Origin: Treponema sp.
GTDB lineage: Bacteria; Spirochaetota; Spirochaetia; Treponematales; Breznakiellaceae
Direction of reading: 5' to 3'
Length of the DNA stretch: 9,822 bases
Assembly (NCBI GenBank): GCA_031254385.1
Contig: JAIRUO010000019.1
Span: forward strand, 1-9,822
The position numbers were made by a program, and so were the translations under genes. Shown here piece after piece: positions 934-9,402 of this stretch (its first letter is position 1; the number at the start of each line of letters is the position of its first letter). The notes beneath the pieces are model-generated. The model made no database searches. It was not told the origin of the DNA and was given only the letters and a program-made list of their open reading frames with translations.

Positions 934-974
934 ATTGTTAATTGTTCCCTGCTCATTGTACATTGCCATTCACC
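934..974. repeat. Degenerate heptamer repeat at the convergent gene ends
   Basis: Between and across the convergent stops the plus strand reads in roughly 7-nt phase: ATTGTTA, ATTGTTC, CCTGCTC, ATTGTAC, ATTGCC, ATTCACC. The last units also encode the C-terminal NGNVQ of the lipoprotein, so the repeat has entered the coding region. It resembles the degenerate heptanucleotide arrays found between genes in several bacterial groups. No intrinsic terminator with a T-run was seen in this 31-bp gap. Confidence 0.45.
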
Positions 975-2113
975 ACCCTTATCGTGTTATTGGTTGTACT
1001 CAGATCGCCCGACCTATTCCATGTACTGCCGCTAAAGGTTCCTCGCTGGGCTGTCGCATCAGAAAGCACATACAATGCCGCCCCTGAATTAGTGGCGGTA
1101 TTTCTAAGGCTCGTGTTAGGCTCATTCGAGCCGTAGATTGTCCCGTTGACTATGCGGAAGGTTCCTATGACACCCACCCCACCGCCACCGCCATCGGTTG
1201 AATTTTCGGAGATTTCACCGCCATTCATGGTAAAGGTTCCTAAAACACCTACCCCACCGCCACCGTAAACTGCTGTATTGCTAAATATTTTACCGTCATT
1301 CATGGTAAAAACTCCTGACACATATACCCCACCGCCACCGCTGCCGTAAGCTATATTGCCGGAGATATCACCACCATTCATGACAAAAGTTCCAGACACA
1401 AGCGCTCCGCCGCCAGCATAAGCTGTATTGCTGAATATTCTACCGCCGTTCATGGTAAAGGTTCCGTACACTTCCACCCCACCGCCACCATAAGCTGTAT
1501 TGCCGAAAATTTCACCGCCGTTCATGGTAAAGGTTGCGTTATTAACAAGCACCGCGCCGCCACTGCCGGTTGTTGTATTGGAGATAATCTTGGACCCATC
1601 ATCCATTACCAGGGTTCCGCCTGAGTTTACCTGGACTAAACTAGCGTTATTGTCGCTCCGACCCTGTAAAGTGATGTTATTACCAAGGGTCAGGGTAACC
1701 TCGCTTACTATCGTAAATAACGAGCCGTTAGACGAAAGACTGATGGTTCGTACCTCGCCTATACCAATTAGGGTTATATTTATATTAGTTAAACCGCTAA
1801 AGGAAAAGGTTGTGGGGTTGATGCTTTCATCGGCATTTATCTCAATGGTATAGTCGGTGTTGGTTTGGGCGTAGGTCTGGAGCCATGATAATTTTTCCGT
1901 AAGGCTTGAGCCTGGGCCTGGATAAACCGGTGGTGGTACTGGTACTGGCTGTGGTGGTTGTAGTGGTGCTGGCGCTTGTACATGTGATTCATCTAGTTGT
2001 ACTGAAGATGTTGGTGTTGGTGTTGGTGTTACCGAACAAGTAACGAAGCTAAACGCCATGATTATTGCCGTAATGATGACCGCAGTTTTTGCGAGAAGGC
2101 CGTTTCTTTTCAT
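953..2113 (-). CDS. Repeat-rich beta-helix-type surface lipoprotein
   Basis: A 386-residue protein. It starts MKRNG, has a hydrophobic stretch (11-24), and reaches a lipobox-like FVTC with C26 as the likely lipidated residue; the T at -1 is unusual, but spirochaetal lipoboxes are loose. A Pro/Thr-rich linker follows (29-68), then a lead-in domain starting LTEKLSWLQ. Next come about five repeats of 24-26 residues of the form GTFTMNGGEIFGNTAYGGGG, and a Ser/Thr/Asn-rich tail. The repeat form resembles right-handed parallel beta-helix or Pmp-like adhesin repeats. No autotransporter barrel is visible, so outer-surface display by lipid anchor is inferred. The ATG (2111-2113) has AAGGA (2121-2125) 7 bases upstream, which fixes the start. 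A 17-G tract about 77 bp upstream may control expression. Ligand and role are unknown. Confidence 0.85.
   Translation of the reverse strand: MKRNGLLAKTAVIITAIIMAFSFVTCSVTPTPTPTSSVQLDESHVQAPAPLQPPQPVPVPPPVYPGPGSSLTEKLSWLQTYAQTNTDYTIEINADESINPTTFSFSGLTNINITLIGIGEVRTISLSSNGSLFTIVSEVTLTLGNNITLQGRSDNNASLVQVNSGGTLVMDDGSKIISNTTTGSGGAVLVNNATFTMNGGEIFGNTAYGGGGVEVYGTFTMNGGRIFSNTAYAGGGALVSGTFVMNGGDISGNIAYGSGGGGVYVSGVFTMNDGKIFSNTAVYGGGGVGVLGTFTMNGGEISENSTDGGGGGVGVIGTFRIVNGTIYGSNEPNTSLRNTATNSGAALYVLSDATAQRGTFSGSTWNRSGDLSTTNNTIRVVNGNVQ
1190..1540 (-). repeat. Coding tandem repeats of 72-78 bp
   Basis: The block containing TTCATGGTAAAGGTTCC (plus-strand view) recurs with the preceding C at 1222, 1297, 1375, 1447 and 1519, giving periods of 75, 78, 72 and 72 bp, all whole codons. 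Each unit encodes one beta-helix turn pair of about 24-26 residues. Similarity between units is high enough at DNA level to allow unequal recombination and copy-number change. Confidence 0.8.
2011..2030 (-). repeat. Hexamer microsatellite encoding Thr-Pro repeats
   Basis: The plus strand reads TTGGTG three times plus TT; on the coding strand this gives the PTPTPT segment just after the lipidated Cys. Whole-codon slippage would change linker length without breaking the frame. Confidence 0.6.
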
Positions 2114-2169
2114 CTTTCTTTCCTTGGTTTTTTGGGTGATGAGAAATGAATAGAGAAATAATGTGCTTT

Positions 2170-2206
2170 TTTATATAAACCTATACTGCGGGGGGGGGGG
2201 GGGGGG
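2170..2206 (-). promoter_or_regulatory. Poly-G(17) tract and probable promoter region of the repeat lipoprotein gene
   Basis: Seventeen consecutive G occupy 2190-2206 (poly-C on the transcribed-gene strand), 77 bp upstream of the lipoprotein ATG. Just downstream on the minus strand are TATAGG (2180-2185) and an AT-rich TATATAAA (2170-2177), either of which could be a -10 box. In both cases the homopolymer would fall in or next to the spacer or -35 region. Length change in such a tract could alter promoter spacing, as described for poly-G tracts upstream of T. pallidum tpr genes. The exact promoter is not resolved, and the run length may be affected by sequencing error. Confidence 0.5.
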
Positions 2207-2326
2207 AGATTACATATTGTTTAACGCAGCTTGCCGCCATATCAGACATGATAAAATTATACAGGAATTCGGAAGATTATTCAAGTCAAGGTAGGAGCGT
2301 TTGGTTTGCTTATGGGCAACAAGGGG
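2207..2326. other. Intergenic stretch without recognisable gene
   Basis: Part of the 272-base gap between the lipoprotein start and the small gene at 2386. It holds no supported reading frame. A 7-bp arm CGTTTGG at 2298-2304 is the reverse complement of CCAAACG at 2358-2364 and brackets the terminator hairpin. It may also hold upstream promoter elements of the lipoprotein gene. Confidence 0.4.
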
Positions 2327-2350
2327 AAAAAACCGTCTGAGGGCAGACGG
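2327..2350 (-). terminator. Intrinsic terminator after the peptidase-like locus
   Basis: On the minus strand a perfect 7-bp stem CCGTCTG/CAGACGG with a 4-base loop (CCCT) is followed directly by six T (plus-strand A at 2327-2332). It lies about 35 bases past the stop of the small gene at 2386 and would end transcripts coming from the 4329-2386 direction. Confidence 0.85.
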
Positions 2351-2385: not shown

Positions 2386-2598
2386 TCAATTCAAAAACAA
2401 ATCTGGCTTAGTTGCCGCCAATGCCCTTTCCTTGAGTACCATAGTTTCCATTTTGCCAGGTTCTCCATGGTTTTTGAAACACCATTCATTGCTTGCCTTA
2501 ATTTCTTCCGGTGTAAATTTTAGCGGTTCGCCTTCTCTTTTTACAGCAACGGCTTTAAAAAACTCTTTTTCCAGCCGCGCATTTAATTTAGCGTCCAT
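2386..2598 (-). CDS. Small unknown acidic/basic protein, downstream partner of the peptidase-like gene
   Basis: About 70 residues, starting MDAKLNARLEKEFF. It is highly charged, without a signal peptide or membrane segment. The central REGEPLKFTPEEIKASNEW part suggests helices, and a single WCFKNHGEPG stretch is the most distinctive. I chose the ATG at 2596-2598: AAGGAG (2609-2614) is 10 bases upstream of it but only 1 base from the other in-frame ATG at 2605-2607, which would add three residues. The start overlaps the 3' end of the preceding gene by 16 bases (25 with the longer start), indicating translational coupling, and the terminator follows. No family recognised. A co-expressed partner or regulator of the upstream protein is possible but only inferred from position. 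Confidence 0.6.
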   Translation of the reverse strand: MDAKLNARLEKEFFKAVAVKREGEPLKFTPEEIKASNEWCFKNHGEPGKMETMVLKERALAATKPDLFLN

Positions 2599-4145
2599 TT
2601 GCTCCATTCTCCTTTTAGGTTATTTCTGTAAGTTTGCATTTTAAACGGAATTATTTCAATAGGGTCTTCTTTCCATATTAAATCATCATGCTCAAATAAG
2701 TATTTATCAAGTGTGTAAAAAATCAAAGAACTAAACGATTTTCCGTCTCCGGTTGCGTCAATTATTAATAAGCCAGAACAATAACTGTCCTTTACAAATT
2801 TTTCCCTTTCATATATTTCACATACCCAGACGAACCTTGGCATAGCAATAGTTAAAAAATTCTTCTTAAAATCAGCATCCATTTTTTCATCGCGTTCAGA
2901 AATAAACTTTTTAAACGAATGGCTACTTGTCAGCATCAGTCTGGTAATCCAATTCCTTCCTATCTTTTTAAAACCGACTGTGGGATTATCAAAAACTTTC
3001 TTTAACCAGTCATAAGCTATTTCGGCAGAAAGATATGTATGCGTCGGCAAGGGAACAATAAAAGAATGGATAATTAAACCACGGTATTTTAAACAAGGTT
3101 TACTATCTTTTTCACCAGGTTCTAGTTTTTCGCTATAATAGGGCGGTAGGTTATCATCTATAAAAATAAGTTTTTTATGTATCAGCAAAGATACATCCAC
3201 CCATGGCTCTGAATTATACTTTGCCCATGGATCATCCTGTCTATAATATATTAAATCATTTTCTTCATGCCCAATTACTAATACCGCATGGCCTACAGTT
3301 TCACCTTCCAAAAATAGCAGTAAAGGAATTCCTGATTCTATATATATATTTATTAGCTGATAAAAAGGTTTATCTTCTGAATACTCAGAAACTGTATAAA
3401 CTAAAGATTGAAACCCGTTTGAATTTAAGCATTTTGCCAGTTCTTTATCAGTTAGTCCCCTAGAGGGTAATATCCGCTGCTCTGCATTATTTTGAAGCGG
3501 TTTAATAATTTGTGAAGGTAATAATGGTTTATACTGTGAATATTTTGAACCGTAATACTCATATAAACACCATAATGCGCTTTCGGCACACGAGTGGGTT
3601 TCTACATCCTGGGCAGTGTGCGGAAATCCGCAAACTTCTAATTCGATTCCTAATAATGAAACCCGATCTTTTATAAGGCAGCATACAAATTCTTTATCCT
3701 TGAACGCTTTCGGAGAGATTAATGATCTGCCTAACATATGCCATATCAATGGGCGGATAATGAAAAAACCATAGTATTTACTGCTAAGTTTCGATACTTT
3801 CTTACCGTTTTTAGGAGCGTTTTCATCACTTGAATTAACAGGGGCTTCTATTTTAAAAATATCATCCTTATTTACCTTTCCTTCAAATAAATGAATTCGA
3901 AGACAATCTCTGTCAATCTGTACAAATTTTGAAGAATAAAGGGAATAATAAGTATCCCGATAATGGCGATCCACATACGGATATTCAATTACAAATGATA
4001 GCTCATCCATAAGTTTGGCGGTCAATGTTTCTATACGTTTAAACAAAGAGGGTTCTTCTTCTTTTATTTTAGGTATTTTTAGAAGCGAAAATATTTTCTT
4101 TTTCAAGGTCTGCCTTGAAGCAGTCCTTATGTATAAAATTTGCAC
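2583..4145 (-). CDS. Papain/C39-like cysteine peptidase-type protein, main part of a probably frameshifted gene
   Basis: About 520 residues if begun at the GTG at 4143-4145, which has no visible ribosome site; real translation more likely began further upstream. A conserved-looking core runs IIRPLIWHMLGRSLISP (129-145), then FPHTAQDVETHSCAESALW (174-192), then SGIPLLLF (271-278), GHAVLVIGH (285-293) and FIDDN (328-332). C186, H286 and D330 or D331 are spaced like a papain-fold or C39-like Cys-His-Asp triad; this assignment is by pattern only. No signal peptide or membrane segment is seen, so it is probably cytoplasmic. The C-terminal ~180 residues form a second region of unknown type. The gene is AT-rich compared with the glycosidase next door. 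The small gene at 2386 overlaps its end. Peptidase activity is unproven; a peptide-processing or toxin/effector role is speculation. Confidence 0.65.
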   Translation of the reverse strand: MQILYIRTASRQTLKKKIFSLLKIPKIKEEEPSLFKRIETLTAKLMDELSFVIEYPYVDRHYRDTYYSLYSSKFVQIDRDCLRIHLFEGKVNKDDIFKIEAPVNSSDENAPKNGKKVSKLSSKYYGFFIIRPLIWHMLGRSLISPKAFKDKEFVCCLIKDRVSLLGIELEVCGFPHTAQDVETHSCAESALWCLYEYYGSKYSQYKPLLPSQIIKPLQNNAEQRILPSRGLTDKELAKCLNSNGFQSLVYTVSEYSEDKPFYQLINIYIESGIPLLLFLEGETVGHAVLVIGHEENDLIYYRQDDPWAKYNSEPWVDVSLLIHKKLIFIDDNLPPYYSEKLEPGEKDSKPCLKYRGLIIHSFIVPLPTHTYLSAEIAYDWLKKVFDNPTVGFKKIGRNWITRLMLTSSHSFKKFISERDEKMDADFKKNFLTIAMPRFVWVCEIYEREKFVKDSYCSGLLIIDATGDGKSFSSLIFYTLDKYLFEHDDLIWKEDPIEIIPFKMQTYRNNLKGEWSKWTLN

Positions 4146-4329
4146 TTATAGCCCTAAATTCTTTATAGACCAATGAATTTATCGGTCTAATTATGATATT
4201 AAATGATAGCCAGAATTCAGGAGATCTGTCAATATTGCGAATTGAGTAAATGCTTTTTTTATCGATATCAATATTAGAACGTAGTAACCAATACGTTATT
4301 GCCCAGTTTTTTCTACCCTCTTTATTCAT
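4069..4329 (-). CDS. N-terminal piece of the peptidase-like protein, out of frame with the rest
   Basis: An 86-residue frame starting MNKEGRKNWAITYWLL and stopping at 4069-4071. It overlaps the 520-residue frame by 77 bases in a different register. Removing one base from the T5 run at 4076-4080 (A5 on the coding strand) joins the two as ...NIFASK-IPKIKEEE..., giving one protein of about 581 residues. This fits the absence of a ribosome site for the downstream frame. The ATG at 4327-4329 directly follows an in-frame TGA and also lacks a clear Shine-Dalgarno, so the true 5' end may be damaged or missing. Alternatives are a sequencing error in the homopolymer, a real pseudogene, or a separate small protein. 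The segment itself has no recognised domain. Confidence 0.5.
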   Translation of the reverse strand: MNKEGRKNWAITYWLLRSNIDIDKKSIYSIRNIDRSPEFWLSFNIIIRPINSLVYKEFRAISANFIHKDCFKADLEKENIFASKNT

Positions 4330-8054: not shown

Positions 8055-8225
8055 ATGATAAAAGACAGGCGAATTGCCATTACTTTCCGGTTAATCTGCT
8101 TCTTAGGCTGATGTATTACACAATACAGAGTAATATTTTAGCGCTTTTTATGTTTGGCTTTTTGTTGGTAAAAACAATTATGGGCTATGCCCGGGAAGGC
8201 AAGTATGGAGAGACGGCCAGTGCCG
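8055..8225 (+). pseudogene. Truncated, frameshifted 5' remnant of a membrane protein gene (Pr6Pr-like)
   Basis: A good ribosome site (GAGGAG, 8042-8047) sits 7 bases before the ATG at 8055, but that frame ends after 18 codons (MIKDRRIAITFRLICFLG) at a TGA (8109-8111). In another frame the protein continues as LMYYTIQSNILALFMFGFLLVKT... from 8108, so a one-base change near 8100-8108 has split it. The joined text, a basic start then hydrophobic helix, then YYTIQSN, then helix, resembles the first two membrane segments of Pr6Pr-family membrane proteins; this is from memory of the family. The similarity fades around AREGKYGETASAAE (to about 8225), where the opposite-strand lipoprotein gene begins to take over. 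Only the 5' end is left. It follows the epimerase gene by 45 bases and may have been the third gene of that unit. Confidence 0.5.
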
Positions 8226-9255
8226 CTGAAGTAAGTATATATGCTACACTAACAACGATGTCATTTTCTATTGAGAACCTAACCCAACGGTATGATTCTC
8301 CGCCATCTCCTCCCCACATATATATTAAGTCTTCTCCATCTTTGCGCCAATAGCTACTGCCGAATGCTGCTATTATATCTTCAGAGTAAGCCCCGATGAT
8401 GGGCATTGTAAATCTATCCAGATTTCTTTTTGCAACAACATCAACATACATTTGACCGCCGCTAGAAAAAACATAATACCTGTGTATAAAGTCTTCGTAG
8501 CTTATCTCCCTGATGCCTGTTAAATAACCTTGCCCTTCATACCTTTTCCCGTCAGAATAATCTATTATTTCATCTTTTATCGGTTCGCCGTATATGGCTA
8601 TAACTGCGTTTTCATCGTCTATATCACTCTGAAATATAATGCCATTTAATACTTCATTATGTATAAAATCTTTAAGCTTGTTTTCATAAGACGATTCGAT
8701 GTTTCGTCTTTCCAAGACTTCTTCCATAGTCCTTTTATAGAATGTAAAATGAACTCCAGATGCTTTAAACTGTAAACTACGGGCATCCAACTTATCAATA
8801 GAAATGGCGGCCCCTGATGAAAGAAAATAAGCATTTAGGTAATACTCGAAATTGTTGCTTTTGTCTGCATCATCTATGATTAGTTTATTTTCTTCTATTT
8901 TATACGGATAAAAATTTTCATCAATAAGACTGTCATCTAGATCGAATTCCCTTATATATAGAATATCATCATTTGTAAATTTTATCTCTATAGATGAAAA
9001 AGCATTACCCATAAACCATGTCCCTATAATGTCCTCTTGAGAATAGATTGTTTGGTTTACTATAACGGGAATATAAGGCTCTATGATGTTTACCTGGGGA
9101 ACAATATCGGGCATTATGACTGGTTCTTGAAAAGGTTTGCCTTCGGCTATTTCTAATTTAATATAGGCTCGCCTTTGTTCGGCTTTGTTTTGGGCCTGCT
9201 TTTGGCAGCTACAGAAAGCGACTATTAGTGCTATAATAAGCAAAAATTTATTCAT
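8185..9255 (-). CDS. Lipoprotein with lipocalin-like N-terminal part, function unknown
   Basis: 356 residues from the ATG at 9253-9255, which has GGAGGA (9261-9266) 5 bases upstream. The longer frame back to 9369 has no ribosome site and would bury the signal peptide. MNKFLLIIALIVAFCSC is a clear lipoprotein signal, with C17 the probable lipidated residue. Residues ~75-160 (DIIGTWFMGNAFSSIEIKF...) have the GTW start and alternating strands of small lipocalin-like beta barrels. A second region (~205-340) contains YGEPIKDE, GYLTGIRE and WGGDGGESYRWVRF, and may be a compact alpha/beta domain; I do not recognise it. The last ~15 residues (SAALAVSPYLPSRA) are encoded antisense to the membrane-gene remnant, so the natural C-terminus was perhaps shorter. 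AT-rich; probably periplasmic-facing or surface-attached. Confidence 0.8.
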   Translation of the reverse strand: MNKFLLIIALIVAFCSCQKQAQNKAEQRRAYIKLEIAEGKPFQEPVIMPDIVPQVNIIEPYIPVIVNQTIYSQEDIIGTWFMGNAFSSIEIKFTNDDILYIREFDLDDSLIDENFYPYKIEENKLIIDDADKSNNFEYYLNAYFLSSGAAISIDKLDARSLQFKASGVHFTFYKRTMEEVLERRNIESSYENKLKDFIHNEVLNGIIFQSDIDDENAVIAIYGEPIKDEIIDYSDGKRYEGQGYLTGIREISYEDFIHRYYVFSSGGQMYVDVVAKRNLDRFTMPIIGAYSEDIIAAFGSSYWRKDGEDLIYMWGGDGGESYRWVRFSIENDIVVSVAYILTSAALAVSPYLPSRA

Positions 9256-9330
9256 GGCCTTCCTCCGGCTGTTTGATAAAGGGTTTCTATATATAAAGAT
9301 AATGGGTTCGGAAAGGAAAGTCAGGCTTTT

Positions 9331-9402
9331 ATAAATGAAAAATGAAAAGTCCCCCTTTCTTCTTCTCATTTCTAATCCATAACCCCTAATCCCTAATCAT
9401 TT
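9331..9402. repeat. Degenerate A/T-rich heptamer-like intergenic repeat
   Basis: The plus strand holds AAATGAAAAATGAAAAGT (9333-9350) and then TCTAATCCATAACCCCTAAT followed by CCCTAATCATTTTTT. The CCCTAAT/CCTAATC unit recurs at about 7-base spacing (9371-9399). It lies between the divergent lipoprotein and ABC permease genes. The remaining intergenic sequence (9256-9550) shows no other gene. Confidence 0.45.

Follow-up and report, generated by a model that had tools for sequence, protein, structure and literature searches.

The question raised by this locus is whether a long homopolymer lying in front of a surface lipoprotein gene is a phase-variation switch and, if so, at which step of expression it acts. 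The window, i.e. the whole stretch of 9,822 nucleotides that was analysed, had been read from its letters alone as carrying a tract of 17 G residues about 77 bp before the lipoprotein start, with a role in transcriptional switching of the kind known from the Treponema pallidum tpr genes. The tract is real: 17 G residues occupy positions 2190–2206 of the plus strand exactly, and 76 nt (2114–2189) separate them from the ATG of the lipoprotein ORF (953–2113, minus strand), in agreement with the distance first given. However, as the ORF lies on the minus strand, the sense strand of the gene carries C17 and not G, so that the description of a G homopolymer holds for the plus strand but not for the gene's own strand. 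The claim that such a tract is very unlikely to arise by chance is upheld, since Markov models of orders 1 to 4, built on the window without the tract, predict between 2.5e-6 (order 1) and 3.3e-8 (order 4) runs of G or C that reach 17 nt, roughly 3e-8 to 3e-6 per window. Apart from the tract, the window has just one run of G or C that reaches 6 nt, a single G6.

The best promoter predicted for the gene does not lie at the tract. A sigma70-type promoter is predicted at 2256–2284 on the minus strand (−35 box TTGAAT at 2284–2279, a 17-nt spacer and −10 box TATAAT at 2261–2256), 49 nt upstream of the tract, and the tract should therefore be transcribed as part of the leader. Its weight-matrix score was 12.8 against 6.6 for the runner-up within 2113–2330; an automatic scan of the window for sigma70 sites found this one only, a yield that by itself does not exceed chance (1.5 expected). 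The TATA-like −10 candidates next to the tract, to which the sequence-only reading had pointed, are thus not the best promoter. Further upstream, a probable intrinsic terminator of the preceding minus-strand genes (2327–2350, minus strand; stem CCGTCTG/CAGACGG followed by T6), which was read by eye and was absent from the output of the automatic scan, suggests that the lipoprotein gene is its own transcription unit and would leave about 210 nt for promoter and leader. A putative leaderless leader ORF spans the tract (2181–2249, minus strand): its ATG (2249–2247) lies 6 nt after the −10 box, its frame is open into the C tract, reading MSDMAASCVKQYVI, and with C17 it has 14 codons followed by Ser/Pro codons across the tract and then Ala-Val before TAG. 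Beyond the tract the three frames are 2, 26 and 6 codons long. The 26-codon frame (f1; 2110–2189, minus strand) ends in a TGA that overlaps the lipoprotein ATG (ATGA, 2113–2110), an arrangement that is not rare by itself; C17 puts the leader into the 2-codon frame, and entry into the 26-codon frame needs tract lengths divisible by 3. The predicted fold of the leader RNA was no better than that of shuffled sequences (z −0.01).

The gene encodes a product of 386 aa, with no match in Pfam, that carries a signal peptide in which a lipobox-like FVTC was recognised by eye; a Pro/Thr linker and a repeat domain with TMNGG repeats follow. An AlphaFold model (27 sequences; mean pLDDT 89.2, pTM 0.82) consists almost entirely of short strands, and in it the repeat domain takes the form of a beta-helix; a fold search with this model against solved structures gave no match at E up to 0.001 (best 4e-3), and many of the weak matches listed first are beta-helix enzymes and tailspikes. 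The coding repeats (1158–1535, minus strand; 72–75 bp, about 4–5 diverged copies, 70–71% matches) had been proposed to be length-variable and to give size variation of the antigen, a proposal that is not supported because units only about 70% alike are too diverged. Homologues numbered 1786 at E up to 0.001 among 7986 scored, and the relatives are mostly from draft genomes labelled Treponema, Spirochaetaceae and Fibrobacteria. A run of at least 9 G or C close to the 5′ end occurs in only seven of 80 relatives, the sense strand carrying C in six of them and G in one, and such a tract is found in only three of the 30 Spirochaetes relatives with at least 300 nt of upstream sequence; the low count among the 80 indicates that the tract is not conserved with the lipoprotein gene. 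The epimerase encoded in the window has relatives of 90% and 84% identity that are metagenome proteins only, named Treponema sp. relatives at 74% and, among the genomes compared, a best match of 61% (G453); we infer that the source of the window is a gut treponeme belonging to the family of the loci L023 and L002. Two other minus-strand ORFs of the window may be mentioned here: a 520-aa protein (2583–4145) with no Pfam match, in which a Cys and an HAVLVIGH segment recall, by eye, a papain-like peptidase, and a further lipoprotein-like ORF of 394 aa (8185–9369), also with no Pfam match and with no long tract upstream.

Very probably the window's tract belongs to a large set of slippage tracts carried by the family of G001 (the genome that contains L023). 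When the pattern H-G12 was counted over whole genomes, a match was found in 130 of the 392 genomes of a phylum sample, and tracts of G12 or more were present in 174 of the 195 genomes of G001's family, at least 10 per genome in 114, at least 50 in 23 and at least 100 in 7 (median 14; maximum 271, in one draft genome). By comparison, the family of G393 had a match in 28 of 139 genomes and at most 7 in each. Six of the seven genomes reached via lipoprotein relatives belong to the list for G001's family. Outside that family, G346 carries 32 tracts on a single contig of 2,889,390 bp, which argues that the feature is not merely an effect of draft assembly. In G001, G307 and G005 many draft contigs start or finish in poly-G/C, so that tracts probably break assemblies and are undercounted. 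Loss of mutS was considered as the cause of the tracts and rejected, as mutS was present in all 16 genomes tested. Among the literature titles and abstract openings listed, none gives an account of such tracts in G001's family, which does not prove their absence from print.

The placement of tracts was analysed in four sampled genomes (G365, G307, G346 and G001), with genes called by a custom script; 213 tracts were located, 159 of them with at least 400 nt on both sides. Of these 159, 22 lay within called genes. Where an intergenic tract stood between tandem genes, the following gene had C on its sense strand in 51 cases and G in 13 (20:3, 18:7, 12:2 and 1:1 by genome); an additional sample of 28 tracts, taken from other members of the family, gave 2:1 among those with at least 300 nt on both sides, a number too small to judge. 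Runs of at least 12 A or T numbered 2, against 213 of G/C, in the same stretches, which had been chosen for G tracts. A neutral run would not show such a bias of place and strand; the reading of the window's tract as a phase-variation tract is therefore supported, though by analogy only, along with the family-wide occurrence and the presence of mutS, whereas the tpr-type promoter switch that formed part of that reading is not.

Tracts in these genomes occur in several settings. Of the G346 tracts, 12 of 32 pass a −35 match of 5/6 and a −10 match of 4/6 around the G tract (spacer type); in six of the 12 both boxes are perfect, with spacers of 16–20, and in 10 of the 12 the next gene is on the same strand. 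Tracts of C in G346 precede chemoreceptor genes, and MCPsignal scored above the cut-off in all 10 proteins scanned (nine of the 11 proteins listed for the C-tract group, plus L324). This complete genome (loci L303–L333) thus presents two tidy sets, G spacer promoters and C tracts before chemoreceptors. A ‘tract at start site’ arrangement of promoters in G346 is doubted, as the same bases also form SD-TTGACATGAAT, in which a ribosome site is followed by an initiation codon a few codons ahead of the tract, and either reading may apply. Coding-start tracts, before or after the signal peptide, occur in G365, where SD, ATG, signal peptide and tract follow one another (e.g. L260), and in the lipoprotein relatives L023 and L002, where the signal peptide follows the tract immediately and no ATG intervenes. 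At six G365 loci (L244, L148, L280, L281, L265 and L277) the open frames from tract to gene are made up of in-frame repeats of about 7 or 14 residues.

The layout found in the window recurs elsewhere in the family. We defined a class, after the window and the loci L009 and L020 had been seen, by a promoter score of at least 10, an ATG placed 4–9 nt beyond the −10 box and a reading frame that stays open as it enters a C tract. Among 226 distinct tracts of at least 10 residues, each flanked by 200 nt on either side and with duplicates recognised by their 25-nt flank and removed, this layout was present on the C strand in 24 and on the G strand in none; the window, which has all three of these features, belongs to the 24. 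The layout occurred at 0.51% of 4150 random positions (binomial P 4e-24), a contrast that is inflated because random positions are largely coding DNA, and the G-strand and offset controls are free of this flaw. Moving the ATG to other offsets gave 4 to 13 matches against 24 (threshold 10), the counts held across promoter thresholds from 8 to 13, and just one of 433 positions upstream of tract-free genes had the layout. The 24 tracts come from 11 genomes or records (8 from G365 and 4 each from G346 and G307), and some share leader sequence. Promoters scoring at least 10 within 170 nt upstream were found on the C strand of 80 of the 226 tracts and on the G strand of 19, with a peak of ATG codons 6–9 nt after the −10 box at 28 of the 80 C-strand promoters. 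A start with a Shine–Dalgarno sequence reads into a further 42 of the 226 tracts, compared with 19 on the G strand and 10% at random. L009 and L020, both from one draft genome, have a common promoter and a similar leader peptide (MKFEKTFKTTNHSQQS / MEYKRTFKSANHSQES) and different downstream sequence.

For the frames that leave the tract, 66 tracts entered by a Shine–Dalgarno or leaderless ORF were considered, 54 of which had a called gene within 700 nt. In these 54 a post-tract frame ran into the gene in 16, ended in ATGA/TAATG in 6 and ended near the start in 11, leaving 21 with none, against 18, 4, 7 and 71% in controls; a gene-reaching frame was thus present in 33 of 54, compared with 29% of controls. 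The window, whose frame f1 ends in the lipoprotein ATGA, is counted among the 21 misses because the automatic gene caller missed the lipoprotein start. The assembled tract length delivers the gene-reaching frame in 6 of the 33 and another frame in 27. Without the entry condition, a clear excess of gene-reaching frames was seen in G365 (17/37 against 17% in controls), a weaker one in G346 (7/23 against 13%) and G001 (3/8 against 12%), and none in G307 (7/27 against 28%). Conservation of leader peptides was sought before the tract (13 pairs) and after it (18 pairs) and was not seen: leader sequences before the tract gave no codon-position bias (47/45/44) and 8 of 13 indels were not multiples of 3, nor was there codon-position bias in the frames after the tract, where an excess at position 3 appeared only in two pairs in which the frame is the gene itself.

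Our tentative explanation, the best single one although we give it somewhat less than an even chance, is that slippage in the tract shifts the point at which leader ribosomes stop and so gates expression of the lipoprotein. In proposing it we infer promoter use, leader translation, slippage, variation in tract length and an effect on expression. The promoter about 50 nt upstream would start the message at or beside an ATG, ribosomes starting at this leader ATG would translate a short leader into the C tract, and the number of C residues would set the frame in which they exit. In one frame they would stop exactly at the lipoprotein start (ATGA), favouring re-initiation and shielding the C-rich RNA; the other two frames would make them stop 8 or 19 nt beyond the tract, with lower expression of the lipoprotein. 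As C17 delivers the short frame, the assembled state would be the low one. Against this explanation, a search for a Shine–Dalgarno sequence of the leader ORF found none, leaderless starts are not an established feature of these bacteria, and the lipoprotein has a Shine–Dalgarno-like AAGGA of its own (2121–2125, minus strand) 7 nt before its ATG. More doubtful is the generalization that the standard switch of the family is poly-C placed close behind the promoter within a short translated leader, in many cases a leaderless one, slippage moving the leader stop onto or off the start of the next gene. One genome may then have more than 100 such switches, acting on lipoproteins and repeat proteins and, in one spirochete, on chemoreceptors. 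If the leader explanation is true, these uncultured symbionts would have one of the largest sets of slippage switches seen (up to 271 tracts of at least 12 in one draft genome, against 18–39 phase-variable genes in Campylobacter jejuni), with a strand preference opposite to that of C. jejuni and acting at a different site. Existing reads would then allow a direct test of bet-hedging in a gut community that is not pathogenic, and the annotated start of many lipoproteins of these genomes would be out of frame.

Other explanations have to be weighed against a switch in the leader. The tract could be a neutral run, driven by mutation and without function, and its rarity among the Spirochaetes relatives of the lipoprotein and the leader peptides with no sign of selection fit such a view; we nevertheless consider it unlikely, given the enrichment in G001's family over that of G393, the 51:13 preference for C, the small share of tracts inside called genes, the near absence of long A/T runs and the retention of mutS. 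Transcriptional phase variation, in which the tract tunes a promoter at or beside itself, either in the tpr manner or as a −35/−10 spacer, is also unlikely. In its favour, spacer-type G tracts exist in a related spirochete, G346, and AT-rich bases come after the window's tract. Against it, the best predicted promoter lies upstream and the sense base is C, and neither strand has a TTGACA-like box with a fitting −10 beside the tract. The T. pallidum genes tprL, tprE/G/J and tp0126 resemble the window in that a long G/C homopolymer stands upstream of a surface protein gene in a spirochete. Their poly-G tracts are sense-strand G inside the promoter, the tprL start site lying 4 nt downstream of the tract and the tp0126 tract between −35 and −10 (PMC7864442), whereas the window has sense-strand C downstream of its best predicted promoter; the lengths differ as well, with 17 residues against 7–11 for tprL (PMC7864442). 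Likewise, in the poly-G spacer promoter of Neisseria porA a homopolymer controls a surface protein, as is proposed for the window, but that tract is described as lying between −35 and −10 (PMC7864442), a layout found in G346 and not in the window, where no −35/−10 pair flanks the tract. Switching of the tpr type is unlikely here.

Control through an untranslated leader, in which tract length would alter how a small RNA or Rho binds the C-rich leader and so grade expression, we regard as decidedly unlikely. Rho prefers C-rich untranslated RNA, which speaks for such control; it does not, however, predict the ATG peak after the −10 box, nor open frames running into the tract. A further point in its favour is that the position in the 5′ leader, predicted for the window from the promoter alone, is the same kind of place as that of the Helicobacter pylori tlpB repeat, a leader G-repeat read by the small RNA RepG, whose length sets expression (PMC8295292). 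The tlpB repeat is of G and its control by RepG is graded, and the window has C. A very improbable alternative is that the tract belongs to the lipoprotein's own coding frame, with classical translational phase variation behind the signal peptide. The relatives L023 and L002 and the G365 cases such as L260 provide precedents, but in the window a stop interrupts the lipoprotein frame 6 codons past the tract, ahead of the ATG and signal peptide that the lipoprotein itself has; barring an assembly error in 2114–2189, the sequence contradicts this arrangement. Least probable of all is an artefact of assembly or sequencing: many tracts of draft genomes do lie at contig ends, but the window has ordinary sequence on both sides of the tract and a single-contig genome of 2.89 Mb has 32 of them.

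Likeness to the Campylobacter phasome lies in the many G/C tracts per genome and in slippage within reading frames (PMC6321876). That study gives 18–39 phase-variable genes for C. jejuni; ORFs contain most of the Campylobacter tracts, and in 5% of the tracts so placed the coding strand has C (PMC6321876). The spirochete tracts, by contrast, are mostly outside called genes, with C as the sense-strand base. Frame transitions by phase variation and those by translational coupling are put into distinct classes in PMC3711429. In its proposed working the window most resembles a blend of the Campylobacter, tlpB and PMC3711429 cases, and on the tests made it belongs to none of them. A minor observation concerns L037, an Oscillospiraceae relative, in which a sense-strand G12 (4260–4271) stands beside a TTGACA in a spacer-promoter-like arrangement before an 882-aa ORF.
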